Shown: positions 5,478-64,000 of the stretch, piece after piece | Position numbering within the stretch: position 1 is the first letter of the stretch | Layout: each line of letters begins with the position of its first letter | Source of the DNA: Nematopogon swammerdamellus | Lineage: Eukaryota; Arthropoda; Insecta; Lepidoptera; Adelidae | DNA: 64,000 nt | Direction of reading: 5' to 3' | Assembly: GCA_946902875.1 (NCBI GenBank) | Contig: OX336355.1 | Coordinates: 15,533,347 to 15,597,346 of the forward strand | Translations under genes and position numbers: made by a program | The notes under the pieces: generated by a model | What the model saw: the letters and a program-made list of their open reading frames with translations, nothing else | Told to the model about the DNA's origin: nothing | Database searches by the model: none

Positions 5478-5768
5478 TACACACCACACGCTGTATCCCG
5501 ACAATCGGGGTAAGCAGAGAAATCGGTGTTGTGCTACAAGTATTCTGATAAATTACAGCACAACACCGACCGCCACGTTTAGCAAAGTATTCGGACAAGA
5601 TAACTCAGACTGGGCATCAAGTAAGGCACGAAGGTCCACCTGCTGCATGACTCGGTGGAAACACCGTGCCAAGGTGAGAGGTGGCTAACCTGTCGCCCCT
5701 ATGTACGGCATCTTGTCATTATCCCTTAGTCGCCTTTTACGACATGCACGGGGAGAGATGCATTTGGA
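5478..5768 (-). mobile_element. Element C copy
   Basis: Reads in reverse from 'ccacacgctgtatcccgac' through 'caacaccgaccgccacgttt' and 'aaggcacgaaggtccacc' to 'cgacatgcacggggagaga'. The first bases of the element are missing at its 5' end. Confidence 0.75.
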
Positions 5769-14146: not shown

Positions 14147-14632
14147 TGTTTTTTTTTATGTAAACCAGCATGGGTGGCTGTGCCGAGAGACCAATGGTGC
14201 AGTCGACAGAGCCAACATCACCTCTCCTCGCGAAACCACGCTCAGTTAGGTGCCATGCCAGCAGATTTGCGGACTGTTGCAAGGCTGTCAAGCCCATTAA
14301 TACGACGCTTGAAGACACCCAGGTTTAGGGATTCAGGAAATATACCCGCCGGAAGACAGTTCCACACTCTAGCGGTGCGACAAAGAAACGATTTAGAGAA
14401 CCCATGGGTTCTCAAAAGCCCAATGTCAACAACAAAAGGGTGCTGAGTCTCTCTGCGACGAGTCATGCGGAGATAGGACGGGTGGCAGGGAATAAGAGAT
14501 GCTAGTTCCGCAGAGCAGCGTCCGTGATAGTATCTGTAAACAGACCAAGCGAACCCACAAATCGTCTGTGACTCAGGGACTCCAGACCATCTGTAACTTT
14601 CGGGTCACCAACAAGACGGATGTTATTTACCT
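14147..14632 (-). pseudogene. LINE-E reverse transcriptase C-terminal remnant, inserted in element C
   Basis: On the minus strand the translation shows 'RLVGDPKVTDGLESLSHRR', then after a frame shift 'YRYYHGRCSAELASLIPCH', 'GFSKSFLCRTARVWNCLP' and 'FPESLNLGVFKRRINGL'. This order is the C-terminal end of CR1/Jockey-group LINE polyproteins. The 3' UTR ends in 'ccagcatgggtggctgtg' (reverse) with poly(A) seen as the T-run at 14147. The endonuclease and polymerase domains are missing. Confidence 0.75.
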
Positions 14633-15060: not shown

Positions 15061-15335
15061 AGTGCGGAAAATTAAATAAGAGAATTTTTTTAAGTATAAA
15101 AATAAACAATAAAACATAGATAATAGTAATAACATACAACTAAATACATTCGTGACATACATACATACAAGTTCAAAAGTACATACATATACGCAATATA
15201 AACAAATACATACATACATACCTAATGCAGTTTCTAAACAAGCGCTATCACACATGGAGACATTATGGGTTTGAAAACATATGTTTACTCAAACGGGATT
15301 TGAAAATGTTGTGGGAAGCGGAAGTACTTTTGTCA
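15061..15335. repeat. AT-rich stretch with (CATA)n tracts
   Basis: (ACAT)n runs at about 15156-15172 and 15208-15225. No other feature is visible. Confidence 0.5.
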
Positions 15336-15725
15336 GCCTCGATAGCTCAGTGGTGCAGACAGTCAACTGTCGCTATTGAATGTTAAGCAACGCTGGGTGC
15401 GGTCAGTACTTGGATGGGTGACCGCTGACCGTTGGAGGCTGACCGAGGTTCGGATTCCTCGTAAAACTGTAGGTCCCTTCCCTCCTAATCTTACTTGGTG
15501 GTAGGGTTTAACCCGCCCGGGTTGGTACCACCGCACTGAATGAAACGTCGGTCAAAACGGCTATGTAAATAGTTTGTGTTTTCCGACCAGTTCAGTGTAG
15601 CCGGCACGATCAAAGGGGGAAGCACTGACATGGCACCTACATAGTTCACCCGGTGTTATGGGCTGACATCACGGACGTTGTCGGTGATGTACCCAACGGT
15701 GTCAGTTTCCATAAAAAAAAATAAA
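15336..15725 (+). mobile_element. SINE-B copy, young subfamily, full length
   Basis: The head runs 'agcctcgatagctcagtggt' (A box TAGCTCAGTGG), then the 5S-like 'gtacttggatgggtgaccgc', then 'gaggttcggattcctcg' (B box GGTTCGGATTCC). The body continues through 'aaactgtaggtcccttccct' and 'gggttggtaccaccgc' to 'gtgtcagtttccataaaaa'. It is nearly identical to 43894-44285 and to the reverse of 33718-34100. Confidence 0.85.
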
Positions 15726-15874
15726 AAAAAGTACGGAGAGTGGCAGGGAGTTGGTTCCAGAGTCGAGCTGATTCAACAGTACTAAACATATAGTACAGTA
15801 CTAAATTACCAGAATTTTTTATTTTGAGTAACAACAAGTTTAAGCTTGGCATAGTATAGAAAGCCAAGTATTAG
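15726..15874. other. Spacer between two SINE-B copies
   Basis: About 150 bp of AT-rich DNA. It includes a duplicated 'tagtacagtactaaat'-like phrase near 15778-15805. Confidence 0.4.
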
Positions 15875-27639: not shown

Positions 27640-28350
27640 CAGGAATACAGAATAAAATCTCATGTATTGACAGGAATAATATTATGTTACCTTAGGGACA
27701 AGCCTAAGTTACCTTGGGAATAAGCATTAGATACCTTGGGATAAGCAAAAGTTACCTTGGCAACAAGCATAAGTTATATTGGGGACTAGCATAATGTGAG
27801 AGTCCCACCAATAGTGAGTTTGTAAATTGTGAATGGGTTTGTAAAAAAAGTGATGAGTTTATAAATTGCATTCTTAGGTTAAAGTTCAGTTACGTGCATA
27901 GAAAAGGACGTTGCACCAGTGAGCCAGTTGCATTCTTCTGCTTAGTTTTTGTTCCGGAGGCAGCGCGGGGCGGAGGCGGCGTGTCGGATGTATGGGAGAG
28001 TCATCTCCGCCCGAGGAATACCGAGCATAACTTCTGTTGTGTGGAGTAAGGTATTTTGGGACGTGGCTACAAGAATGTAGAATAAAATCTCATGTTTTTA
28101 CAGGGACAATATTACGTTACCTTAGGGACAAACCTAAGTTACCTTAGCGACAATCATATTTTATTATAGCTTGGGGACAACCCTAATTTACCTTGGGGAT
28201 AAGCATGAGTTACCTTGGCGACAAGCCTAATTTATCTTGGGGATAAGCCTAATTTACCTTGGGGACAAGCATAAATAACTTTGCAGACAAAGCTAAGTTA
28301 CATTGGGAACATGCCTAAGTTACCTTGGGAATAAGCATAGATATTAGAGT
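27640..28350. repeat. Degenerate 22-bp minisatellite in two duplicated blocks
   Basis: The unit is approximately 'gttaccttggggacaagc' plus 'ataa' (22 bp). Block 1 is 27680-27795, block 2 is 28115-28350, and a short third run lies at 28485-28555. Each main block is preceded by the same lead-in ('agaataaaatctcatgt'), so the whole block was duplicated. Copies differ at many positions. 22 bp is not a multiple of three and no coding role is evident. Confidence 0.75.
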
Positions 28351-31085: not shown

Positions 31086-31265
31086 TGGTCAGTCAGTCCA
31101 CTGCTGGACATACGCTTTTGTCCAGTTCAACGTTACGGAACCACTGCTTTCCGCCGATGTACTTGATGTCGTTCCTGGACCTGGTGTATAGTCTACCCAC
31201 ACTCCGTTTCCTGTCCACGGCCGCCAGTGTAGGACACGATTACTCCAAAGGTCGTCGACATACAC
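31086..31265 (-). pseudogene. RTE LINE reverse transcriptase C-terminal remnant
   Basis: Minus-strand translation gives 'DLWSNRVLHWRPWTGNGVW' and, after changes, 'SVTLNWTKAYVQQWTD'. The order (tryptophan-arginine-proline-arginine block, then a terminal 'AYVQQW') is the end of RTE-clade polyproteins of Lepidoptera. The endonuclease and polymerase are missing. Confidence 0.65.
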
Positions 31266-33645: not shown

Positions 33646-33715
33646 TATTACTAAAAAGAGTGAGATAAAAAATCTTTAAAAAAATATTCAACCGACTTCA
33701 AACCCTAAAAAGTAT

Positions 33716-34101
33716 TTTTTTTTATGGAAACTGACACGGTTGGCTACATCACCTACAACGTCCGTGATGTCAGCCCATAACACCGGGTGAACTAAGTGCC
33801 ATGTCAGTGCTTCCCCCTTTGATCGTGCCGGCTACACTGAACTGGTCGGAAAACACAAACTATTTACATAGCCGTTTAGACCGACGTTTCATTAAGTGCG
33901 GTGGTACCAACCCGGGCGGGTTAAACCCTACGACCAAGTAAGATTAGGAGGGAAGGGACCTACAGTTTTACGAGGAATCCGAACCTCGGTCAGCCTCCAA
34001 CGGTCATTGGTCACCCATCCAAGTACTGACCGCAACCAGCGTTGCTTAACATTCAATAGCGACAGTTGACTGTCTGCACCACTGAGCTATCGAGGCTGAC
34101 A
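33716..34101 (-). mobile_element. SINE-B copy, young subfamily, full length
   Basis: Reverse orientation. Shares private markers with 15336-15725 and 43894-44285: 'gatcgtgccggctacactga', 'ctggtcggaaaacac', 'agattaggagggaaggg' and 'caatagcgacagttgactgt'. Confidence 0.85.
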
Positions 34102-34490
34102 AATATTAATTAATATTTTGATCTTCTTGATCTCTTGATTATTTGATCTCAGTTTTTTTCTTGACTTAACTTCGAGCCATCTCCAAAGAAACAAAAGCAA
34201 CTCCACCGATCAGTGTGACCACTTCACAAGTTGAGCCATAAGTAAGGGTCCGGCCACACTTAGTACCTAGTTAAGTCTCCGTTCGTAGGTGGGCGACCCA
34301 GGTAATATCTATAATTTAATCTTATCGGCGCGCGCATAGGCGAGCTTCGACAGGCGATACTGGCAACACTAAGACGAATGGTTCGGTATTAAAATGTGCT
34401 GTTTATATTTTTAACTAAACGGTTTAGTTATTAAATTTAATTAAATATACCTACATACTTTATTGAACAAAAAAAAGTGCAGAACGTAGA
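34102..34490. other. Unassigned stretch
   Basis: 'ggcgcgcgcatagg' near 34326-34339 is the only GC-rich feature. No frame or repeat. Confidence 0.35.
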
Positions 34491-35689: not shown

Positions 35690-35805
35690 CACATTAAATA
35701 TCCAACACTTCTAATGGCTCGATAAATTGCTCGCTGGGCAACTTTCAACCTTTGAACAACAGCGACCGTCAGCGTCCACGTTTCACACCCGTACCACAGA
35801 TTACT
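35690..35805 (-). mobile_element. RTE LINE fragment
   Basis: 'attgctcgctgggcaacttt' and 'caacctttgaacaacagcga' match 52235-52296 (RTE remnant). Here the text continues 'cgtttcacacccgtaccaca', showing how the element normally reads at the place where the 52.3-kb copy turns into the inverted repeat. Confidence 0.6.
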
Positions 35806-39510: not shown

Positions 39511-39520
39511 ACACGGCGGC

Positions 39521-39570
39521 GTGTGTCGGCGTGTGTCGGCGTGTGTCGGCGTGTGTCGGCGTGTGTCGGC
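39521..39570. repeat. 10-bp minisatellite, five exact units
   Basis: Unit GTGTGTCGGC repeated five times without a mismatch; a preceding half unit is at 39511-39520. The perfect array implies recent expansion. It keeps frames open on both strands by chance. Confidence 0.9.
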
Positions 39571-39727
39571 GCGACACAGAAGGCGGCACTGTGTGACGGT
39601 TCCCAATCAATTTGTACACAGCCTCCGCAGCGTTATGTATCGCCGGCCGGCCGCCGCTAACTAGCTGCTCGGCCCTATTATGTAAGCTGCAGGCGGATTG
39701 TCGAAATTTTATTTTATTTTTTATTTT

Positions 39728-43470: not shown

Positions 43471-43893
43471 CTGCAATTTTTACCTTATGTACTTTAACAG
43501 TGCACAAATTATACTGATAAAAAAAAATCGTGAAATATTTCATCATCAATACTAAGTAAGGGATGGTCATGAAGTAAGTTACTTTGTTTTAGGAAATATT
43601 GAGTTTGTAGCCTCTATGTATGATACTAAAGCTAAATTGACGATTTTTAGAAATCTTTTCTGTATGCATGTATGTTCCTCCATAACTCTTAAACCGATCA
43701 TCCGAATTTGATGAAAATTAGTACAAGCACATTTAGATACACGAGACGCAGGATAGGCTAAATAAAATTCAGCTCCGGTTACGCTAAGATGTGGTTCTCA
43801 TACAAACCGACTTGTTCCGCGCGCCGAAATATAGCGTAGCGGGTTTACTTACTTTCTTCTTTTTAAATAATTCTTCTTTTCTTTTTTCGTCAG
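43471..43893. repeat. AT-rich stretch with an insect dispersed-repeat fragment
   Basis: 43670-43860 ('tgtatgttcctccataactc', 'accgatcatccgaatttgat') resembles the body of Helitron-like insect repeats. The remainder is unassigned. Confidence 0.35.
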
Positions 43894-44285
43894 CCTCGAT
43901 AGCTCAGTGGTGCAGACAGTCAACTGTCGCTATTGAATGTTAAGCAACGCTGGGTGCGGTCAGTACTTGGATGGGTGACCGCTGACCGTTGGAGGCTGAC
44001 CGAGGTTCGGATTCCTCGTAAAACTGTAGGTCCCTTCCCTCCTAATCTTACTTGGTGGTAGGGTTTAACCCGCTCGGGTTGGTACCACCGCACTGAATGA
44101 AACGTCGGTCAAAACGGCTATGTAAATAGTTTGTGTTTTCCGACCAGTTCAGTGTAGCCGGCACGATCAAAAGGGGAAGCACTGACATGGCACCTAGTTC
44201 ACCCGGTGTTATGGGCTGACATCACGGACGTTGTAGGTGATGTAGCCAACGGTGTCAGTTCCCATAAAAAAAAAAAAAAAAATAG
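43894..44285 (+). mobile_element. SINE-B copy, young subfamily, full length
   Basis: Head 'gtcagcctcgatagctcagt' with A box, 5S-like 'gtacttggatgggtgaccgc', B box 'gaggttcggattcctcg'. A poly(A) of about 17 ends it. It differs from 15336-15725 at only a few positions that I can see ('cgctcggg' for 'cgcccggg', 'aaaagggg' for 'aaaggggg'). Confidence 0.85.
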
Positions 44286-49386: not shown

Positions 49387-49702
49387 TTGTTGTTGTTGTT
49401 GTCGTTGTTGCTGTTTTTTGTTGTTGTTGTTTTGTTGTTGTTTTGTTGTTGTTGTCGTTTTGTTATTGTTACCCCAGCCAGCCATTCCTCTATTCTTACA
49501 CATATTTCAATGAAATTATCATTCCTGGAACCCATAAGACGTTGTGTTGTTTTGTTTTTGTTTGTTGTTGTTGTTTTGTTTTTGTTGTTGTTGTTTTGTT
49601 GTTGTTGTCTTGTTGTTGTTGTTGTTACCCCAGCCATCCTATGAAATTCCTCTATTCTTACACATATTTCAATAAAATTAACATTCTTGGAACCCATAAG
49701 AA
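49387..49702. repeat. Duplicated (GTT)n/(TTTG)n block
   Basis: Two GTT-rich tracts (49387-49468 and 49547-49626) are each followed by the same ~70-bp phrase ('taccccagcca' to 'cctggaacccataag'). The period is about 160 bp. The open frames rich in valine/leucine or glutamine/asparagine here are simple translations of the repeat. Confidence 0.85.
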
Positions 49703-51612: not shown

Positions 51613-51914
51613 AAATAATTATATTTTCAAACAACCCACGGTGATTTGTTATTAGACTTTTCGCTATATTATCCAGGAACGTGTTTAGATGGGAGTGCCC
51701 CTTTGTTGAAGAATGCACTCTGTGGGCTTGTGAGATGATTCATGTTTCAATGACAAAAATAATGTGTTAAAATGAACAAGAGTTTTGTAGCGGGATTTCT
51801 GCGTCTTCCTTCAATGAAAGGGGTGCGTTAAATTTTTGTGAGAATATTTTTTGTAAAACTATAATTTCCAAAATTCATAAAGAATATTTTAATTTTTATA
51901 TATTAGTACTAAGC
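51613..51914. other. Unassigned spacer
   Basis: No signal seen. Confidence 0.35.
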
Positions 51915-52296
51915 ATGCCAGTCAGTCAGCGTGTAAGCGTCCACTGCTGGACATACGCCTCCCCAATTTTCCTCCAGCGGTACGGAACCACTGCTTTCCG
52001 CCGACGTACTTGATGCCGTCGCCCCACCTGGCGGGTGGTCTTCTCACACTCCGTTTTCCAGTCCGCGGCCGCCAGTGTAGGACACGGTTACTCCAACGGT
52101 CGTCGTCTCTTCGGCTAGCCCCGGTTAGGCCCAGCCCACTGCCACTTGAGCTTAGCCACCCGGTGTCCAATATTGACTACTTTGATGCGTCGGCGGATTG
52201 CCTCGTTACGCACCATATCGCGTAGCGATATTCCCAGCATGGCTCGCTCCATTGCTCGCTGGGTAACTTTCAACCTTTGGACAACAGCGACCATCA
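51915..52296 (-). pseudogene. RTE LINE reverse transcriptase C-terminal remnant
   Basis: Minus strand carries, in order and with frame shifts, 'KVTQRAMERAMLGISLRDMV', 'NEAIRRRIKVVNIGHRVAKL', 'WQWAGP', 'RWSNRVLHWRPRTGKRSVRR' and 'PPARWGDGIKYVGGKQW'. This is the C-terminal region of RTE-clade LINE polyproteins. The catalytic domains are not present. Its upstream edge runs into the 27-bp inverted repeat at 52296-52354. Confidence 0.8.
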
Positions 52297-52354
52297 GAGT
52301 TCACGTTTCACACACTAAGCATAGCACATGCTTAGTGTGTGAAACGTGAACTCT
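52296..52354. repeat. 27-bp perfect inverted repeat with loop AGCAC
   Basis: Stems 52296-52322 and 52328-52354 pair perfectly; the loop is AGCAC (52323-52327). The left stem begins as native RTE sequence, as the 35780 copy shows. The same stems form the centre of the palindrome (58138-58196), where the loop reads GTGCT. Confidence 0.95.
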
Positions 52355-52529
52355 TTATATTTCTTCATTAGATTTATGTGCATGTTTTAAAATGCGACTA
52401 GGTAAGGACAAGATTCCGTGTATAGATAAGGGCGACAGGCTAGCCATCTCTCACCTTGGTCACCTCCACCGAGACATGTGTAGCAGTTGGGTCTTCGTGC
52501 TGTAATTTACAAGAGTACTTGCACCACAA
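52296..52529 (+). repeat. 234-bp direct copy of the palindrome centre-right segment
   Basis: Identical to 58138-58371 at a constant offset of 5842, apart from the inverted 5-nt loop. It contains an element C fragment ('gatagataagggcgacaggc'-like text, 'tctcaccttggtcacctcca'). The match ends at 'ttgcaccacaa' on both sides. Nine bases (52530-52538) separate it from the left palindrome arm. Confidence 0.95.
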
Positions 52530-52664
52530 GTAAACTGTAAGTCGAAGTAATAAGGAGTGGCTGGTGGAAGGAAAGTGCAGTTTAAATTAGGCCAATGAGA
52601 AAATTAGAATAGAATAGAATGACATGGAATGGAATATGGTAGAGTATAATCAATACTATTTTAA

Positions 52665-53075
52665 AATTCGAATTGAGTATATCTACAGATACTATCACGG
52701 ACGCTGCTCTGTGGAACTAGCATCCCTTATTCCCTGCCACCCGTCCTATCTCCGCATGACTCGTCGCAGAGATACTCAGCACCCTTTTGTTGTTGACATT
52801 GGGCTTTTGAGAACCCATCGGTTCTCTAAATTGTTTCTTTGTCGCACCGCTAGAGTGTGGAACTGTCTTCCGGCGAGTGTATTTCCTGAATCCTTTAACC
52901 TGGGTGTCTTCAAGCCTCGTATTAACGGGCTAGACAGCCTAGAACAGTCCGCAAATCTGCTGGCATGGCACCTAACTGAGCGTGGTTTCGCGGGGAGAGG
53001 TGATTTTGGCTCTGTCGACTGCAGCGTTGGTCTCTCGGCACAGCCACCCATGCTGGTTTACATAAAAAAAAAAAA
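52665..53075 (+). pseudogene. LINE-E C-terminal remnant and tail, left arm
   Basis: A single frame reads 'YRYYHGRCSVELASLIPCHP', 'TRRRDTQHPFVVDIGLLRTH', 'LFLCRTARVWNCLPASVFPE' and 'FNLGVFKPRINGLDSLE'. This is the C-terminal part of a CR1/Jockey-group LINE polyprotein. It is about 90% or more like the 14147-14632 copy by eye. The 3' UTR 'cagccacccatgctggttta' and 'cataaaaa' ends it. Confidence 0.8.
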
Positions 53076-53269
53076 TGACATTTCTGAAGCGGGCTGTATG
53101 CATGGGTGTACATGACGACTTAGAATAGAATAGAGTAGTCACAAAATGGCAACAAGTAGGTAGGTAATCTAAAAAAAATATTATGATTTTCAAATATTTG
53201 ATGTCAGTACTGCGCTCTAATGTACTGAATACTTCTCTGCTAATTGCTGCCCATATAATAAGAAATTAT

Positions 53270-53774
53270 GCATAATTTTTTTGTCAAAAGCGCGACATGT
53301 GGCGCCGCACTACCCATAAGGTGTCTATCGACGCCCATGGAGATTCGGACGATGCGGGTTTGCGAATTCTGGTCTATATTCCCTCTTGAAGGACCCGAGA
53401 CTGTACTTGAGGAGAAATATATGGGCAGGGAGAGCGTTCCAGAGTTACCAGTTCTGTAGAGAAAAGATATGCAGAACCAATTTGTACGCATGAGCGGTAA
53501 GTCCAGCGTGTAGGGATGCAATCCCTAGCCAACGCGTGTGGTGCGGAGATGGAAAGGAGACGACGAACGAGATCGCGTCAAACAGCTCCTCCGAGTACTC
53601 CCCATGGAATAAGCGATAAAACACACTTAGGGAGCTATTAAGAGCCAGTGGCTCTAGATCGCGGGACACTTCGGGGTCACCCACCATTCGCACGGCTCAA
53701 CGCTGGATCGAGTCCAGAGAAAGCTGGTATTTGGCAGAGCCATCCCACAGGTTTCGAGCAGTACTCCGTATATT
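53270..53774 (-). pseudogene. LINE-F reverse transcriptase C-terminal remnant, left arm
   Basis: On the minus strand: 'RNLWDGSAKYQLSLDSIQR', a stop, 'RMVGDPEVSRDLEPLALN', 'SVFYRLFHGEYSEELFDAI', then after a frame shift 'MRTNWFCISFLYRTGNSGTL'. The pattern (tryptophan-aspartate-glycine block, GDP, YRLFHGE) is the C-terminal end of CR1/Jockey-group polyproteins. The tail 'cgtcgatagacaccttatgg' matches the other LINE-F tails. Confidence 0.8.
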
Positions 53775-53907
53775 TTTTCCGTATATAACTGGTTGTAAAC
53801 TTAATATAATACAAAACGTTTTTGTTCCAATCATTCGTTCGGAACGGGACCACGACCTTGTTTGATTTCGTACCGAATTATGGAAACATTCCTTCATTCA
53901 CGAAATT

Positions 53908-54154
53908 CCATACTTCGTCGCTTGTGAGGCCAATCTGCCAGATTGGCTAATTGGACCTAGAGGTACCAATATACGGAGAATGGGTGAATACACGTTGTGG
54001 CCAATTTTCATGACTGTATATCAATTAGGTTCGAAGATATTGAAGTTTAAAATTAACTTAAGCTAGGTTTAACAGTATTAAAAAAAAATGTTTTTTGCTT
54101 CTCCTGTAAAGTTACGATTTTGCAGATTGGCAAATTGGCCTGACAAGCGACGAC
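53908..54154. mobile_element. MITE-like unit with ~33-bp inverted ends, left arm
   Basis: 'tcgtcgcttgtgaggccaat' at the left corresponds to 'attggcctgacaagcgacga' at the right. The interior is AT-rich. The mirror copy is at 62180-62426. Confidence 0.6.
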
Positions 54155-54447
54155 TTACACGGTGACCACTGATCGATCTTAATAAATCACTGTCGTTTGC
54201 ACAATCAGCTCTAACAGTTGAGACAATGTTCTAGAACCTTGGCTTATTCACACACTCCTGAAGTTATGTCTAGGGTAGGGTGCACGAATCGTCCCTTGTA
54301 GTATGACAAGGTTTACCAGTTGATCAGTCTCCAGCGCCGTCATAGCATGGTTCTACCTATGCTGGCTGGATTTCCATTCTTGCCGAGCTAAGGCGAACAA
54401 CTCCGAACGCGACTATGGAACATTCGGAATTGCTCGTTTCGACTCTC
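54155..54447. other. Unassigned segment, left arm
   Basis: No family match. Mirror 61887-62179. Confidence 0.35.
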
Positions 54448-54547
54448 AAGCACTGACATGGCACCTAGTTCACCCGGTGTTATGGGCTGACATCACGGAT
54501 GTTGTAGGTGATGTAGCCAACCGTGTCGGTTCCATGAAAAAAAATCT
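54448..54547 (+). mobile_element. SINE-B tail, left arm
   Basis: 'aagcactgacatggcaccta' to 'ccgtgtcggttccatgaaaa'. Mirror 61787-61886. Confidence 0.7.
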
Positions 54548-55290
54548 CGAATCGTCTTGTCAGCGCAGCGCTTTGAACTTTGTTCGTTTTTGTCATCGAG
54601 CAGGGAGCCGATAAGGATGCAACAAACCGTCGTTGAAATATAAAAGAATTATTGCGCCAAAATTCGAGGGTTTGTAGAATGAAGCAAGAGAAAGTGTGGA
54701 TAGGCGACTCGAAAGACGGCCGAACGTGTCAATGCCAATGGAAACATTGCGTTTAGTGCGCTCCCACCCAGCGTATAAAATTCTTCCCTAAAAAGTCCCT
54801 AGCCTGAGTGGTCGGTGGTTTTTATACACCAGGGAAAAATCCCCACTCGCAAACGCAGGCCAATCTACGCCTGCGACTCTTCAATGCCAGAATGAGCGTC
54901 TATTCGGAAGGTTAGGTATATTTGTATGACTCCACGTTTTTTGCATTGATCCCTGGTAACTTGATACTTGTAGCGCCCTCCAGCCAGGAGTTATCTCACA
55001 CAGGTCAGGCCAAAGAAACCAGAGGGCGCGGTTAACTCTCAGGAGGGGGAACGCGCGCTCAGGGATAGGGCAGGAGATGAAATAAATCGACTGACTTTCT
55101 GGACAGTCTGAGCCGATATTCCAATATTAGGATAAACTGGAACTGTTGAGAGTCTGTCGTCGAGCTGAGGAGTTAGTAGTCTGTCGAGGCTCTCCAGCGA
55201 GGTCGAGGCCAGAGGCCGTGCTGTGTAGATCTGTAACACGAAACCCGAAGCGCTTTCGAGGTACTCCAGTGAGGGTGCGATTGAAGAACT
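54548..55290. other. Unassigned segment, left arm
   Basis: About 740 bp. A TATAAAA (54775-54781) and a moderately GC-rich 55010-55290 are visible. An 87-codon minus-strand frame (55039-55302) has serine/leucine-rich content and no family I know. It is not supported as a gene. Confidence 0.35.
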
Positions 55291-55292
55291 CT

Positions 55293-55616
55293 TACATACC
55301 ACACGCTATATCCCGACAATCGAGGTAAGCAGAGTAGTCGGTGCTGTGATTCAAGTACTCGTGTAAATTACAGAACAACACCGACCATCACATTTAGCAA
55401 AGTTTTAGGGACAAAATAACTGATCAAGCAGCAAATAAGGCACGAAGACCCACTTTCTGCATTACTCGGTGGAAGAACCGTGCCATAGTGAGAAATGGTA
55501 AGCTTGTCGCCCTTATGCACAGCATCTTGTTTTTATGCCTTAGTCGCCTTTTGCGACATGCATGGTGAGAGATGCAGTGGGGCTATTCTTTTTAAGTACC
55601 GACCCCACACGGTACT
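55293..55616 (-). mobile_element. Element C copy, left arm
   Basis: Reversed full-length copy: 'ccacacgctatatcccgaca' to 'gtaccgaccccacacggtac'. Mirror 60718-61041. Confidence 0.8.
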
Positions 55617-55697
55617 CGGAAGAATTCATTCCTCCATAAATCACCCGTGCTAATAAATATTAGAACGAACGATGAAGGTATAAATGGTAAACCGGTA

Positions 55698-56333
55698 TCG
55701 TATCTCCGAACGGGCTCGCTCAGCCGAACCGAATACCTAGCCGAATGTCGATAGTGAAAGTGAAAATCTGTGGAAAATTGGAAAGGTATCTCCGAACAGG
55801 CTCGCTCAGCCGAACCGAATACCTAGCCGAATGTCGATAGTGAAAGTGAAAATCTGTGAAAAATTGGAAAGGTATCTCCGAACAGGCTCGCTCAGCCGAA
55901 CCGAATACCTAGCCGAATGTCGATAGTGAAAGTGAAAATCTGTGGAAAAGTGGAAAGGTCTCTCCGAAAGGGGTCGCTCAGCCGAACCGAATACCTAGCC
56001 GAATGTCGATAGTGAAAGTGAAAATCTGTGGAAAAGTGGAAAGGTCTCTCCGAACGGGCTCGCTCAGCCGAACCGAATGTCGATAGCGAAAGTGAAAATC
56101 TGTGGAAAAGTGGAAAGGTCTCTCCGAACGGGCTCGCTCAGCCGAACCGAATGTCGATAGTGAAAGTGAAAATCTGTGGAAAAGTGGAAAGGTCTTTCCG
56201 AACGGGCTCGCTCAGCCGAACCGAATGTCGATAGTGAAAGTGAAAATCTGTGGAAAAGTGGAAAGGTATCTCCGAACGGGCTCGCTCAGCCGAACCGAAT
56301 ACCTAGCCGAATGTCGATAGTGGAAAGGGGTCA
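55698..56333. repeat. Minisatellite, eight units of 86 or 74 bp, left arm
   Basis: Units start with 'tctccgaacgggctcgctca' and end 'gaaaatctgtggaaaa'. Units 1-4 and 8 contain 'acctagccgaat' (86-bp form); units 5-7 lack these 12 bp (74-bp form). The last is incomplete. Since 74 is not a multiple of three, consecutive units fall in different frames, which explains the overlapping 'MEKWKGLSERARSAEPN' frames. Those frames are not genes. Confidence 0.9.
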
Positions 56334-56620
56334 CAAACAAGTAGTAATAGACTCGCCCCGGGCGGTTAGTCCGCCTCGCAACAATGTGAGTATATTGGTT
56401 AGTTAGAGAATGCCAAAACAAATAAATAAGTTGGCCCCGAGCGAAGCCAATTAATTTAATAAAACCAATAACCAATAAACATTTCAATTAATTATTGACC
56501 GAACCGCACCTTGCACCGGCGACTGTGGAATCTAAAATCTAACTGGGACAGACGATATAGTAGCAAACCTTTGAGGTGTGTCAACTCAGCGAAATAGGAA
56601 AATATTACATACACCGTAAC
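56334..56620. other. Unassigned segment, left arm
   Basis: Single-copy within each arm; 'ttggccccgagcgaagccaa' at 56431-56450. No gene signal. Confidence 0.35.
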
Positions 56621-56965
56621 AGTCGACTGTTGTTAAGCACACCTGGACGCGGTTAGTACTTGGATGGGTGACCGCTCGACCATAGGAGGCTAAACGTGGT
56701 TCGGATTACACGTTAAACTGTAGGTCCCTTCCCTTCTTACCTCACTGGGTGGTAGGAATTATCCTGTCCAGGTTGGTACAACCGCACTGAACGAAACTTC
56801 GGTCGAAACGGCGGCTGTGTAAATAGTTCGTGTTTTCCGTCCAGTTCAGTGTAGCCGACATGAAATGAAGGGAAGCACTGACATGGCATCTAGTTCCCTC
56901 GGTGTTATGGGCTGACATCACAGATGTTGTAGGTGATGTAGACAACCGAGTAAGTTTTCTTAAAA
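56620..56965 (+). mobile_element. SINE-B copy lacking the outer head, left arm
   Basis: Begins 'agtcgactgttgttaagcac', so the A box is lost but the 5S-like part ('gtacttggatgggtgaccgc') and B-box region ('gtggttcggattacacg') remain. Tail ends 'gtaagttttcttaaaaaatt'. Confidence 0.75.
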
Positions 56966-57159
56966 AATTAAAAAATATAAATTCTCGATGCTAGTCCTAA
57001 AAGCGTTACCGAGATGTGCCGAGATAGAACACAGGACCATATACGAAAGTCAACACACTCAGTAATACACACGTTTGAACGAAGTCCAGATGAAGTTGTT
57101 ATACTAGGAGAACATAAAGAAGTAATAGCTAGAATAAGGTAGTCGAGTAATAAGCCAGA
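56966..57159. other. Unassigned segment, left arm
   Basis: No family match. Confidence 0.35.
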
Positions 57160-57985
57160 TGTTGTGAAATAACGTTGTTTATTGTGCGTTCAACTGCGTC
57201 TCGGGCTTCGTTCAATTTCCTCTATCGATTTTAAATTTATTTGGAAAAGGCGTGCATAATTTAGTTTTTACAATGATTTTCTATACATACATTTAGCACT
57301 GACATGGCACATAGTTCACCCGGTGTTATGAGCTGACATCACGGATGTTGTAGGTGATGAAGAGAACCGTATCAGTTTCCATAAAAAAAAAAATAATACA
57401 TACCACACGCTGTATCCCGGCATTCGGGATAAGCAGAGTAGTCGGTGTTGTACTCTTGTAAATTACAGCATGTTGTGAAGTTACGTTTGTTTATTGTGCG
57501 TTCAACTGCGTCTCGGGCTTCGTTCAATTTCCTCTATCGATTTAAAATTTATTTGGAAAAGGCGTGCATAATTTAGTTTTTACAATGATTTTCTATACAT
57601 ACATTTAGCACTGACATGGCACATAGTTCACCCGGTGTTATGAGCTGACATCACGGATGTTGTAGGTGATGAAGAGAACCGTATCAGTTTCCATAAAAAA
57701 AAAAAAAATACATACCACACGCTGTATCCCGGCATTCGGGATAAGCAGAGTAGTCGGTGTTGTACTCTTGTAAATTACAGCATGTTGTGAAGTTACGTTT
57801 GTTTATTGTGCGTTCAACTGCGTCTCGGGCTTCGTTCAATTTCCTCTATCGATTTTAAATTTATTTGGAATAGGCGTGCATAATTTCGTTTTTAAGTTGA
57901 TTTTCTACACATACTTACCACACGCTATAACCCGGCAATCAGGATAAGCAGAGTAGTCAGTATTGTGGTGCAAGTACTCTTGTAA
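57160..57985. repeat. Composite tandem repeat, period 311-312 bp, left of centre
   Basis: Units start at 57160, 57471 and 57783 with 'tgttgtgaa'. Each full unit holds a unique ~140 bp ('caactgcgtctcgggcttcg'), a SINE-B tail ('gcactgacatggcacatagt' to 'agtttccataaaaa') and an element C 3' end ('ccacacgctgtatcccggca'). The third unit lacks the SINE-B tail. The poly(A) differs by about 2 nt between units. Confidence 0.85.
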
Positions 57986-58137
57986 ATTACAGCACGAAGA
58001 CCCAACTGCTACACATGTCTCGGTGGAGGTGACCAAGGTGAGAGATGGCTAGCCTGTCGCCCTTATCTATACACGGAATCTTGTCCTTACCTAGTCGCAT
58101 TTTAAAACATGCACATAAATCTAATGAAGAAATATAA
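57915..58137 (-). mobile_element. Element C fragment next to the centre, left arm
   Basis: Reversed C text 'accacacgctataacccggc', 'ctcggtggaggtgaccaagg' and 'gtcgcattttaaaacatgc'. It diverges strongly from other C copies. Its mirror and the direct copy at 52376-52529 are the same. Confidence 0.7.
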
Positions 58138-58196
58138 AGAGTTCACGTTTCACACACTAAGCATGTGCTATGCTTAGTGTGTGAAACGTGAACTCT
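58138..58196. repeat. Palindrome centre: 27-bp stems and 5-nt loop GTGCT
   Basis: Stems 58138-58164 and 58170-58196; loop 58165-58169, with the symmetry point on 58167. The loop is the reverse complement of the one at 52323-52327. Confidence 0.95.
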
Positions 58197-58348
58197 TTAT
58201 ATTTCTTCATTAGATTTATGTGCATGTTTTAAAATGCGACTAGGTAAGGACAAGATTCCGTGTATAGATAAGGGCGACAGGCTAGCCATCTCTCACCTTG
58301 GTCACCTCCACCGAGACATGTGTAGCAGTTGGGTCTTCGTGCTGTAAT

Positions 58349-59174
58349 TTACAAGAGTACTTGCACCACAATACTGACTACTCTGCTTATCCTGATTGCC
58401 GGGTTATAGCGTGTGGTAAGTATGTGTAGAAAATCAACTTAAAAACGAAATTATGCACGCCTATTCCAAATAAATTTAAAATCGATAGAGGAAATTGAAC
58501 GAAGCCCGAGACGCAGTTGAACGCACAATAAACAAACGTAACTTCACAACATGCTGTAATTTACAAGAGTACAACACCGACTACTCTGCTTATCCCGAAT
58601 GCCGGGATACAGCGTGTGGTATGTATTTTTTTTTTTTTTATGGAAACTGATACGGTTCTCTTCATCACCTACAACATCCGTGATGTCAGCTCATAACACC
58701 GGGTGAACTATGTGCCATGTCAGTGCTAAATGTATGTATAGAAAATCATTGTAAAAACTAAATTATGCACGCCTTTTCCAAATAAATTTTAAATCGATAG
58801 AGGAAATTGAACGAAGCCCGAGACGCAGTTGAACGCACAATAAACAAACGTAACTTCACAACATGCTGTAATTTACAAGAGTACAACACCGACTACTCTG
58901 CTTATCCCGAATGCCGGGATACAGCGTGTGGTATGTATTATTTTTTTTTTTATGGAAACTGATACGGTTCTCTTCATCACCTACAACATCCGTGATGTCA
59001 GCTCATAACACCGGGTGAACTATGTGCCATGTCAGTGCTAAATGTATGTATAGAAAATCATTGTAAAAACTAAATTATGCACGCCTTTTCCAAATAAATT
59101 TAAAATCGATAGAGGAAATTGAACGAAGCCCGAGACGCAGTTGAACGCACAATAAACAACGTTATTTCACAACA
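58349..59174. repeat. Composite tandem repeat, right of centre
   Basis: Mirror image of 57160-57985; same three units in reverse. Confidence 0.85.
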
Positions 59175-59368
59175 TCTGGCTTATTACTCGACTACCTTAT
59201 TCTAGCTATTACTTCTTTATGTTCTCCTAGTATAACAACTTCATCTGGACTTCGTTCAAACGTGTGTATTACTGAGTGTGTTGACTTTCGTATATGGTCC
59301 TGTGTTCTATCTCGGCACATCTCGGTAACGCTTTTAGGACTAGCATCGAGAATTTATATTTTTTAATT

Positions 59369-59714
59369 TTTTAAGAAAACTTACTCGGTTGTCTACATCA
59401 CCTACAACATCTGTGATGTCAGCCCATAACACCGAGGGAACTAGATGCCATGTCAGTGCTTCCCTTCATTTCATGTCGGCTACACTGAACTGGACGGAAA
59501 ACACGAACTATTTACACAGCCGCCGTTTCGACCGAAGTTTCGTTCAGTGCGGTTGTACCAACCTGGACAGGATAATTCCTACCACCCAGTGAGGTAAGAA
59601 GGGAAGGGACCTACAGTTTAACGTGTAATCCGAACCACGTTTAGCCTCCTATGGTCGAGCGGTCACCCATCCAAGTACTAACCGCGTCCAGGTGTGCTTA
59701 ACAACAGTCGACTG
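59369..59714 (-). mobile_element. SINE-B copy, right arm
   Basis: Mirror of 56620-56965. Confidence 0.75.
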
Positions 59715-60000
59715 TTACGGTGTATGTAATATTTTCCTATTTCGCTGAGTTGACACACCTCAAAGGTTTGCTACTATATCGTCTGTCCCAGTTAGATTTT
59801 AGATTCCACAGTCGCCGGTGCAAGGTGCGGTTCGGTCAATAATTAATTGAAATGTTTATTGGTTATTGGTTTTATTAAATTAATTGGCTTCGCTCGGGGC
59901 CAACTTATTTATTTGTTTTGGCATTCTCTAACTAACCAATATACTCACATTGTTGCGAGGCGGACTAACCGCCCGGGGCGAGTCTATTACTACTTGTTTG

Positions 60001-60636
60001 TGACCCCTTTCCACTATCGACATTCGGCTAGGTATTCGGTTCGGCTGAGCGAGCCCGTTCGGAGATACCTTTCCACTTTTCCACAGATTTTCACTTTCAC
60101 TATCGACATTCGGTTCGGCTGAGCGAGCCCGTTCGGAAAGACCTTTCCACTTTTCCACAGATTTTCACTTTCACTATCGACATTCGGTTCGGCTGAGCGA
60201 GCCCGTTCGGAGAGACCTTTCCACTTTTCCACAGATTTTCACTTTCGCTATCGACATTCGGTTCGGCTGAGCGAGCCCGTTCGGAGAGACCTTTCCACTT
60301 TTCCACAGATTTTCACTTTCACTATCGACATTCGGCTAGGTATTCGGTTCGGCTGAGCGACCCCTTTCGGAGAGACCTTTCCACTTTTCCACAGATTTTC
60401 ACTTTCACTATCGACATTCGGCTAGGTATTCGGTTCGGCTGAGCGAGCCTGTTCGGAGATACCTTTCCAATTTTTCACAGATTTTCACTTTCACTATCGA
60501 CATTCGGCTAGGTATTCGGTTCGGCTGAGCGAGCCTGTTCGGAGATACCTTTCCAATTTTCCACAGATTTTCACTTTCACTATCGACATTCGGCTAGGTA
60601 TTCGGTTCGGCTGAGCGAGCCCGTTCGGAGATACGA
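60001..60636. repeat. Minisatellite, right arm
   Basis: Mirror of 55698-56333 with the same order of 86-bp and 74-bp units. Confidence 0.9.
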
Positions 60637-60717
60637 TACCGGTTTACCATTTATACCTTCATCGTTCGTTCTAATATTTATTAGCACGGGTGATTTATGG
60701 AGGAATGAATTCTTCCG

Positions 60718-61041
60718 AGTACCGTGTGGGGTCGGTACTTAAAAAGAATAGCCCCACTGCATCTCTCACCATGCATGTCGCAAAAGGCGACTAAGGCATA
60801 AAAACAAGATGCTGTGCATAAGGGCGACAAGCTTACCATTTCTCACTATGGCACGGTTCTTCCACCGAGTAATGCAGAAAGTGGGTCTTCGTGCCTTATT
60901 TGCTGCTTGATCAGTTATTTTGTCCCTAAAACTTTGCTAAATGTGATGGTCGGTGTTGTTCTGTAATTTACACGAGTACTTGAATCACAGCACCGACTAC
61001 TCTGCTTACCTCGATTGTCGGGATATAGCGTGTGGTATGTA
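60718..61041 (+). mobile_element. Element C copy, right arm
   Basis: Mirror of 55293-55616; here it reads forward from 'gtaccgtgtggggtcggtac'. Confidence 0.8.
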
Positions 61042-61786
61042 AGAGTTCTTCAATCGCACCCTCACTGGAGTACCTCGAAAGCGCTTCGGGTTTCGTGTTA
61101 CAGATCTACACAGCACGGCCTCTGGCCTCGACCTCGCTGGAGAGCCTCGACAGACTACTAACTCCTCAGCTCGACGACAGACTCTCAACAGTTCCAGTTT
61201 ATCCTAATATTGGAATATCGGCTCAGACTGTCCAGAAAGTCAGTCGATTTATTTCATCTCCTGCCCTATCCCTGAGCGCGCGTTCCCCCTCCTGAGAGTT
61301 AACCGCGCCCTCTGGTTTCTTTGGCCTGACCTGTGTGAGATAACTCCTGGCTGGAGGGCGCTACAAGTATCAAGTTACCAGGGATCAATGCAAAAAACGT
61401 GGAGTCATACAAATATACCTAACCTTCCGAATAGACGCTCATTCTGGCATTGAAGAGTCGCAGGCGTAGATTGGCCTGCGTTTGCGAGTGGGGATTTTTC
61501 CCTGGTGTATAAAAACCACCGACCACTCAGGCTAGGGACTTTTTAGGGAAGAATTTTATACGCTGGGTGGGAGCGCACTAAACGCAATGTTTCCATTGGC
61601 ATTGACACGTTCGGCCGTCTTTCGAGTCGCCTATCCACACTTTCTCTTGCTTCATTCTACAAACCCTCGAATTTTGGCGCAATAATTCTTTTATATTTCA
61701 ACGACGGTTTGTTGCATCCTTATCGGCTCCCTGCTCGATGACAAAAACGAACAAAGTTCAAAGCGCTGCGCTGACAAGACGATTCG

Positions 61787-61886
61787 AGATTTTTTTTCAT
61801 GGAACCGACACGGTTGGCTACATCACCTACAACATCCGTGATGTCAGCCCATAACACCGGGTGAACTAGGTGCCATGTCAGTGCTT
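61787..61886 (-). mobile_element. SINE-B tail, right arm
   Basis: Mirror of 54448-54547. Confidence 0.7.
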
Positions 61887-62179
61887 GAGAGTCGAAACGA
61901 GCAATTCCGAATGTTCCATAGTCGCGTTCGGAGTTGTTCGCCTTAGCTCGGCAAGAATGGAAATCCAGCCAGCATAGGTAGAACCATGCTATGACGGCGC
62001 TGGAGACTGATCAACTGGTAAACCTTGTCATACTACAAGGGACGATTCGTGCACCCTACCCTAGACATAACTTCAGGAGTGTGTGAATAAGCCAAGGTTC
62101 TAGAACATTGTCTCAACTGTTAGAGCTGATTGTGCAAACGACAGTGATTTATTAAGATCGATCAGTGGTCACCGTGTAA

Positions 62180-62426
62180 GTCGTCGCTTGTCAGGCCAAT
62201 TTGCCAATCTGCAAAATCGTAACTTTACAGGAGAAGCAAAAAACATTTTTTTTTAATACTGTTAAACCTAGCTTAAGTTAATTTTAAACTTCAATATCTT
62301 CGAACCTAATTGATATACAGTCATGAAAATTGGCCACAACGTGTATTCACCCATTCTCCGTATATTGGTACCTCTAGGTCCAATTAGCCAATCTGGCAGA
62401 TTGGCCTCACAAGCGACGAAGTATGG
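62180..62426. mobile_element. MITE-like unit, right arm
   Basis: Mirror of 53908-54154. Confidence 0.6.
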
Positions 62427-62559
62427 AATTTCGTGAATGAAGGAATGTTTCCATAATTCGGTACGAAATCAAACAAGGTCGTGGTCCCGTTCCGAACGAA
62501 TGATTGGAACAAAAACGTTTTGTATTATATTAAGTTTACAACCAGTTATATACGGAAAA

Positions 62560-63064
62560 AATATACGGAGTACTGCTCGAAACCTGTGGGATGGCTCTGC
62601 CAAATACCAGCTTTCTCTGGACTCGATCCAGCGTTGAGCCGTGCGAATGGTGGGTGACCCCGAAGTGTCCCGCGATCTAGAGCCACTGGCTCTTAATAGC
62701 TCCCTAAGTGTGTTTTATCGCTTATTCCATGGGGAGTACTCGGAGGAGCTGTTTGACGCGATCTCGTTCGTCGTCTCCTTTCCATCTCCGCACCACACGC
62801 GTTGGCTAGGGATTGCATCCCTACACGCTGGACTTACCGCTCATGCGTACAAATTGGTTCTGCATATCTTTTCTCTACAGAACTGGTAACTCTGGAACGC
62901 TCTCCCTGCCCATATATTTCTCCTCAAGTACAGTCTCGGGTCCTTCAAGAGGGAATATAGACCAGAATTCGCAAACCCGCATCGTCCGAATCTCCATGGG
63001 CGTCGATAGACACCTTATGGGTAGTGCGGCGCCACATGTCGCGCTTTTGACAAAAAAATTATGC
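62560..63064 (+). pseudogene. LINE-F C-terminal remnant, right arm
   Basis: Mirror of 53270-53774, with the same stop and frame shift. Confidence 0.8.
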
Positions 63065-63258
63065 ATAATTTCTTATTATATGGGCAGCAATTAGCAGAGA
63101 AGTATTCAGTACATTAGAGCGCAGTACTGACATCAAATATTTGAAAATCATAATATTTTTTTTAGATTACCTACCTACTTGTTGCCATTTTGTGACTACT
63201 CTATTCTATTCTAAGTCGTCATGTACACCCATGCATACAGCCCGCTTCAGAAATGTCA

Positions 63259-63669
63259 TTTTTTTTTTTTATGTAAACCAGCATGGGTGGCTGTGCCGAG
63301 AGACCAACGCTGCAGTCGACAGAGCCAAAATCACCTCTCCCCGCGAAACCACGCTCAGTTAGGTGCCATGCCAGCAGATTTGCGGACTGTTCTAGGCTGT
63401 CTAGCCCGTTAATACGAGGCTTGAAGACACCCAGGTTAAAGGATTCAGGAAATACACTCGCCGGAAGACAGTTCCACACTCTAGCGGTGCGACAAAGAAA
63501 CAATTTAGAGAACCGATGGGTTCTCAAAAGCCCAATGTCAACAACAAAAGGGTGCTGAGTATCTCTGCGACGAGTCATGCGGAGATAGGACGGGTGGCAG
63601 GGAATAAGGGATGCTAGTTCCACAGAGCAGCGTCCGTGATAGTATCTGTAGATATACTCAATTCGAATT
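63259..63669 (-). pseudogene. LINE-E C-terminal remnant, right arm
   Basis: Mirror of 52665-53075, with the same single open frame. Confidence 0.8.
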
Positions 63670-63795
63670 TTAAAATAGTATTGATTATACTCTACCATAT
63701 TCCATTCCATGTCATTCTATTCTATTCTAATTTTCTCATTGGCCTAATTTAAACTGCACTTTCCTTCCACCAGCCACTCCTTATTACTTCGACTT

Positions 63796-64000
63796 GGCAC
63801 GCTAAAATAAACCATAGTGTTTATTTATTACAATTTATTTTACCTTCTAATTTTCCATATTGAATTGCCGTCTAATTGGCTCATCGTCAGTGAATTAAAC
63901 TTGCAGTATTCATTACTTTTATACCATGGTATGAAACACCTAGAAGGGGCTTGTAGAAAAGGTGACAGATACCTGCCAAAATTATATATTACTAGCTTTT
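63796..64000. other. AT-rich unassigned end of window
   Basis: No repeat or gene signal. It is the true flank of the right palindrome arm and therefore useful for testing the rearrangement. Confidence 0.4.

Follow-up and report, generated by a model that had tools for sequence, protein, structure and literature searches.

How could a perfect palindrome of more than 11 kb, with only five nucleotides at its center, come to stand in an animal genome? The question is raised by a 64,000-nucleotide stretch of DNA from the lepidopteran Nematopogon swammerdamellus (contig OX336355.1, forward-strand positions 15,533,347 to 15,597,346), referred to here as the window and numbered from its first letter. 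An earlier annotation made from the letters alone (the original prediction) had described, toward the right end of the window, a palindrome of about 11.26 kb with identical 5.6-kb arms and a 5-nt center. Our analysis favors, at a probability of roughly 0.6, a young interstitial inverted duplication in which the turn-around would have taken place at a pre-existing 27-bp hairpin. Three elements beside the palindrome hold most of the information on its origin, and all three had been overlooked: a third copy of the palindrome center, the tip of a long interspersed nuclear element (LINE) with a likely target-site duplication, and a 9-nt filler.

Results

The left arm (52539–58164, + strand, 5626 bp) and the right arm (58170–63795, − strand) are perfect reverse complements around the center GTGCT (58165–58169), with base pairing at 5626 of 5626 pairs and neither mismatches nor gaps. 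In what follows, the left arm is read as an inserted inverted copy and the right arm is taken as the original. The arm-to-arm alignment that the original prediction had called for returns no difference, and its pairing rule, position x with 116334 − x, holds at every position from 52539 to 58164. The poly(A) lengths that it had reported as matching do match: the left arm has six A-tracts, of 8 to 14, and each is mirrored exactly in the right arm. The paired reading frames that it had also offered as evidence are present, but they carry no weight because mirrored DNA necessarily mirrors its frames. Complementarity fails at once beyond 52538/63796, which gives the symmetry a sharp edge at 52539/63795.

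Both arms run through tandem arrays. An array of 74/86-bp units at 55700–56327 (+ strand) is mirrored at 60007–60634, and one of 312-bp units at 57159–57914 (+ strand; 2.4 copies, 97% matches) is mirrored at 58420–59175. The units have diverged from one another inside each arm, with no divergence between the arms. When ten sequences of equal length were simulated with a Markov model, perfect stems with loops of up to 40 nt reached 13 bp at most, which excludes a chance origin of the palindrome. As a feature of the sequence, the palindrome is real and very young-looking. Under the assumptions of no gene conversion and of the Heliconius mutation rate, quoted in PMC5535293 as 2.9e-9 per site per generation (1.3e-9 to 5.5e-9), zero differences in 5626 pairs give a 95% upper bound on its age of about 92,000 generations (range 48,000 to 205,000).

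Comparison of the window with itself revealed a third copy of the palindrome center, 9 bases outside the left arm. The stretch 52296–52529 (+ strand) is the exact reverse complement of 57963–58196, identical over 234 of 234 bases. Set against 58138–58371 in direct orientation, it differs solely in five loop bases, which are inverted. At its left end lies a hairpin (52296–52354) formed by 27-bp arms at 52296–52322 and 52328–52354 around the 5-nt loop AGCAC, of which the palindrome center GTGCT is the reverse complement. A survey of the whole window for perfect stems (12 bp or more, loops of up to 40 nt) places this hairpin directly after the large palindrome, at 27 bp, and the next stem has 16 bp. 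Folded as single-stranded DNA it reaches −32.1 kcal/mol (z score −11.1), compared with a mean of −7.0 for shuffled sequences, none of which (0 of 200) did as well. The inversion junction of the palindrome thus coincides with a hairpin-capable inverted repeat, the 27-5-27 form of which is still intact at 52296–52354 in its own LINE context.

This context gives the copies a polarity. Running into the hairpin is a 5′-truncated LINE fragment (51918–52313, − strand) of the endonuclease-reverse transcriptase type, which we take to be RTE-like. Translated from the reverse strand, the fragment reads CET*TLMVAVVQRLKVTQRAMERAM, similar to proteins from Lepidoptera, P0014 (..SETWSLTMGLIRRLRVTQRAMERAM; ..ETWSLTMGLIRRLRVTQRAMERAM) among them. 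The 62 protein relatives listed comprise 53 from Pararge aegeria, 1 from Diatraea saccharalis and 8 that are unnamed or hypothetical, and the ETW part of the translation is covered by three of the nine relatives retrieved (P0014, P0016 and P0039). The 5′ tip of the element is fixed by a second LINE copy at 35714–35788, to which 52239–52313 aligns at 89% identity, ending exactly at 52313. The same copy shows that arm 1 of the hairpin consists of LINE sequence over its outer 18 bases. The remaining, inner part of arm 1 is the 9-bp stretch ACTAAGCAT at 52314–52322, directly after the LINE tip; it recurs exactly at 51908–51916, one base from the inferred LINE tail, and the pair is a likely target-site duplication. 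The 3′ boundary at 51918 was placed by eye from a CAGTCAGTC tail, which a copy near 31090 has too; alignment to other copies begins only at 51939. In a control for random matching, 27 of 5000 random 20-mers from window positions 1–50000 matched the hairpin by at least 9 bases at any place.

Arm 1 of the hairpin therefore appears to have an independent origin at the left copy, and arm 2 appears to be a mirror copy of arm 1. The palindrome center, for its part, holds the LINE tip without the LINE, and arm 1 runs on into the element at the left copy alone. We read the left copy as the source and the palindrome center as derived from it, because arm 1 at the left copy consists of the LINE 5′ tip and the likely target-site duplication. 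By this polarity the hairpin would predate the palindrome.

A second repeat tells which version of the sequence is broken at the other end of the third copy. This repeat, presumably a short interspersed nuclear element (SINE) or similar, has many copies in the window, and the fragment of it at 52378–52529 (+ strand) is cut off at 52529. For the corresponding part of the right arm (58320–58445), nine of the 13 BLAST matches outside the palindrome cross position 58371 and the other four end at or before it. For the left copy (52478–52603), none of the seven outside matches crosses 52529, the equivalent of 58371. The best local alignments to seven reference stretches were compared as well. Six of them end short of the breakpoint whichever copy is aligned, and hence say nothing about it. 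The seventh stretch is part of the arm; its alignment to the right arm extends for a further 50 columns (45 matches), that to the left copy for no column at all. It is thus the right arm that carries the continuous version, unbroken over 58371/58372, and 52529 is a break, because the SINE-like repeat crosses the former position and not the latter. Among the SINE-like copies, those at 15328–15730, 43884–44282 and 33715–34103 are about 97% alike, closer than most listed pairs.

Between the break and the left arm lies a 9-nt filler, GTAAACTGT (52530–52538, + strand), which belongs to neither neighboring copy. The left junction, 52529 | GTAAACTGT | 52539, unites sequences from opposite strands that lie 5.4 kb apart. 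This second junction appears to have been made by another repair route than the hairpin turn-around. On the far side, the right flank (63796–64000) is single-copy in the window: a blastn search of the window returned its self-match and no relative, so that the junction 63795/63796 rests on the model, in which it is unbroken.

From these relations a simple precursor can be written, consisting of the LINE, the hairpin, one arm and the right flank. It measures 58158 bases and is obtained by joining the left copy to the remainder of the right arm. One inverted insertion of 5842 bases into this precursor, with two junctions and the 9-nt filler, regenerates all 64000 bases of the window. The first step, which the sequence supports, would be the LINE insertion that left the apparent 9-bp target-site duplication. 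In the second, the end beside that duplication may have folded back and copied 27 nt (duplication plus LINE tip) in reverse, and the resulting 27-5-27 hairpin would then have been joined to the following sequence. Yeast breaks gain templated inverted duplications by fold-back, mostly of about 5–34 bp (PMC11724301; this and the papers below are cited for the passages concerned), and the second step fits that report because the 27-nt seed falls within this range. The third step, whose letters are reproduced exactly, would be a later copying of the locus up to what is now 52529, followed by a join through the filler to the opposite strand 5.4 kb on, at 63795. From that point copying would have returned to the hairpin and reversed direction, whether by snap-back or by switching from one hairpin arm to the other, before passing once more along the arm and on into the right flank. 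A return through the hairpin predicts a loop in the opposite orientation, and the loops of the third copy and the center are indeed inverted relative to each other. The model also accounts for the fact that the hairpin at the center is found elsewhere, with its loop inverted relative to the source, and for the very existence of a third copy.

Template switching, an inverted triplication that lost one palindromic junction, and a hairpin-capped dicentric followed by end-joining all predict identical final letters. The relations among the copies are read from the letters themselves; the enzymology we infer. No function is indicated for the palindrome, which on this reading would be a mutation caught soon after its birth.

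Discussion

Three explanations had been offered for the perfect arms: that the event is very recent, that gene conversion is ongoing, or that the assembly or library contains a fold-back artefact. The first is the one that we favor, now with a mechanism; long-term gene conversion finds no positive support, and the artefact remains the main rival. Several points weigh against a hairpin-seeded duplication. The replay was fitted to the very sequence that it reproduces and argues for sufficiency, not proof, and the precursor was reconstructed from this one sequence. The LINE 3′ end was placed by eye, and with it the left target-site duplication. The filler has no convincing template, its best partial match being 7 nt at 63750, possibly by chance.

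The main rival is an in vitro origin of the palindrome, whether through whole-genome amplification, a missed sequencing adapter or the assembler. We consider this doubtful and nonetheless weighty. The seed hairpin would be an ideal self-primer for a strand-displacing polymerase, a second chimera would make the left junction, and zero differences over 5.6 kb are expected from the copying of one molecule. A single fold-back is nevertheless insufficient, because it explains the center and not the left junction; since the symmetry stops sharply at both outer edges, an artefact requires two chimeric joins, and the 9-nt filler would have to belong to one of these. A missed adapter would mirror the whole molecule, flanks included, about one end, and would place the center at a random molecule end. 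What is found is symmetry that ends at 52539/63795 and a center at the window's longest hairpin. An assembler, moreover, normally needs several agreeing reads. How common such artefacts are depends on amplification: palindromes occurred in 47.8% and 43.6% of amplified PacBio reads in two Arabidopsis sets and in 11.8% for the gorilla Y, compared with 0.5% of unamplified reads, to which missed adapters contributed (PMC6218980).

Within the odds of our preferred explanation, one particular route deserves separate treatment. Origin-dependent inverted-repeat amplification (ODIRA) would produce an inverted triplication with two palindromic junctions, one of which was later deleted, leaving the filler. 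Reasoning from PMC10766186, we expect triplication and one deletion to yield the same final order. In yeast, the inverted junctions at SUL1 sit at pre-existing interrupted inverted repeats, longer repeats being likelier to be used (PMC10766183). The present locus shares with ODIRA (PMC10766183, PMC10766186) a palindromic junction at a pre-existing inverted repeat, and secondary deletion of one junction is reported in those papers. Hairpin arms and spacer together measure 59 bp, which lies inside the 40–80 bp given for repeats plus spacers in the legend of Fig. 6 of PMC10766183. In the section text of the same paper, however, and in the model figure of PMC10766186 (repeats of about 5 nt, 40–80 nt apart), 40–80 is the spacing itself, and the spacing here is 5 nt. 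The arms are also longer than those reported, 27 bp against 2–14 bp (PMC10766183). The same source argues for a replication error rather than a break and describes a preference for wider spacing than that seen here, and both papers expect close inverted repeats to self-anneal. ODIRA is recognized by two junctions, both at short inverted repeats. The window holds a single palindromic junction, and the left junction is a filler join of sites 5.4 kb apart; secondary loss of one junction would explain the difference. On balance we regard this route as unlikely, within an explanation that we otherwise prefer.

The hairpin-seeded inverted duplication belongs to a known kind of rearrangement that is unusually readable here, and the comparison with gene amplification made in the original prediction proves close in mechanism. 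The nearest parallel lies in yeast fold-back inversions, in which a short, small-looped hairpin provides the turn-around and a second rearrangement follows (PMC7467729). Those inversions use hairpin stems of 4–15 bp, the 15-bp stem being both the longest available and a hotspot, whereas the stem here has 27 bp. The product here is interstitial and keeps both flanks, it lies in an insect-like genome for which no repair defect is known, and its second joint carries a 9-nt filler, where those in PMC7467729 arose mostly by homologous recombination. A unifying model derives inverted duplications from palindromic intermediates with eroding junctions (PMC10766186). Large human inverted duplications have likewise been explained by molecules that fold back at inverted homology and then undergo a second join (PMC3907307). 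The spacers sequenced there range from 766 bp to 70 kb, and the cases described adjoin terminal deletions, translocations or rings, in contrast to a 5-nt spacer and two retained flanks here.

Human rearrangements of the duplication-inverted triplication-duplication type (DUP-TRP/INV-DUP) have duplicated segments on both sides of the inverted triplication, whereas the duplicated block in the window lies on one side only. They measure hundreds of kilobases. They do share with the present locus one inverted segment between direct copies and one junction in an inverted repeat (PMC4352052); here three copies of a 175-bp tail accompany two of the remaining arm sequence, at kilobase size. Among arthropods, the springtail Folsomia candida has palindromic gene blocks that are also inverted duplications (PMC5490193). 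These are collinear blocks of genes, of which the Dscam2 block has a synonymous divergence (Ks) of 0.2, termed low there, while the arms described here bear repeats and are identical. Among the open-licence PMC papers listed on insect and lepidopteran palindromes, none appears to concern a comparable perfect palindrome in a lepidopteran.

An old palindrome kept identical by arm-to-arm gene conversion, as on mammalian Y chromosomes, is a very improbable alternative. It would account for the perfect identity; the LINE relatives point to Lepidoptera, and lepidopteran females carry a W chromosome. Gene conversion would, however, also have to convert the third copy outside the arms, which is identical over 234 bases. 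No gene was recognized in the three arm frames tested, and the center has only 5 nt; on these two grounds the comparison with sex-chromosome palindromes made in the original prediction also receives no positive support. Still less credible is the reverse order of events, with the left copy made from the palindrome. The left copy and the palindrome center differ in nothing but the orientation of the loop, yet it is at the left copy alone that arm 1 runs on into the LINE and borders the likely target-site duplication. The two arms could also be alleles that were joined in error; their perfect identity argues against this if heterozygosity is around 1%. A fold-back transposon was rejected as well: the 20 bases that lie beyond each end have in common a direct match of at most 5 bases (TAAAC, not abutting the ends), so that no target-site duplication brackets the palindrome, and the end-join and the unbroken flank explain the outer ends.

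In most of the papers compared, the inverted duplications come from yeast selections and from patients, with a starting sequence known from a reference. Here the source hairpin, the derived center, the end-join and the continuous version of the repeat adjoin one another, and a single sequence is enough to read in what order things happened. That a perfect 11.26-kb palindrome with a 5-nt center stands in an animal germline, having grown from a LINE tip and target-site duplication through a 27-bp hairpin to 5.6-kb arms, is a claim that we advance tentatively, as somewhat short of an even bet. If it holds, retrotransposon tips would be seeds of hairpins that grow stepwise into giant palindromes, and a structure thought too unstable to persist would be seen with its parental junction still in place. 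A real palindrome would offer a natural test case for hairpin-to-palindrome growth, for survival of a palindrome with a 5-nt center in an animal, and for seeding at retrotransposon junctions; if it is not real, the contig is chimeric and serves as a caution.

Gene content and other repeats

No Pfam family was found at E values up to 0.1 in ten frames of the window, three of them in the palindrome, and no Pfam domain at E values up to 10 in three frames (one frame belongs to both sets, which makes 12 different frames overall). The longest arm frame had no protein relative among 15 candidates. The window contains no structured RNA at Rfam gathering scores and no transfer RNA by ARAGORN with the bacterial code; compared with viral contigs, the hairpin arm and the SINE-like stretch gave 0 matches each. 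A 163-aa frame in the left arm (52624–53115), presumably the end of a non-long-terminal-repeat retrotransposon protein, had no database match and has a 95% relative at 14149–14538.

The window as a whole (1–64000) is rich in interspersed repeats of about 300–400 bp, many copies of which are 83–97% alike. Near its left end, a 289-bp direct repeat (2072–2360 and 2581–2868) has 95% identity between copies about 510 bp apart. Degenerate 22-bp repeats occupy 27686–28343, in arrays at 27686–27794 and 28116–28343 with the units GTTACCTTGGGGACAAGCATAA and GTTACCTTGGGGACAAGCCTAA. The 10-mer CGGCGTGTGT is present in 5.5 perfect copies at 39517–39571, and two GTT-rich arrays of similar make-up lie about 70 bp apart at 49387–49626.

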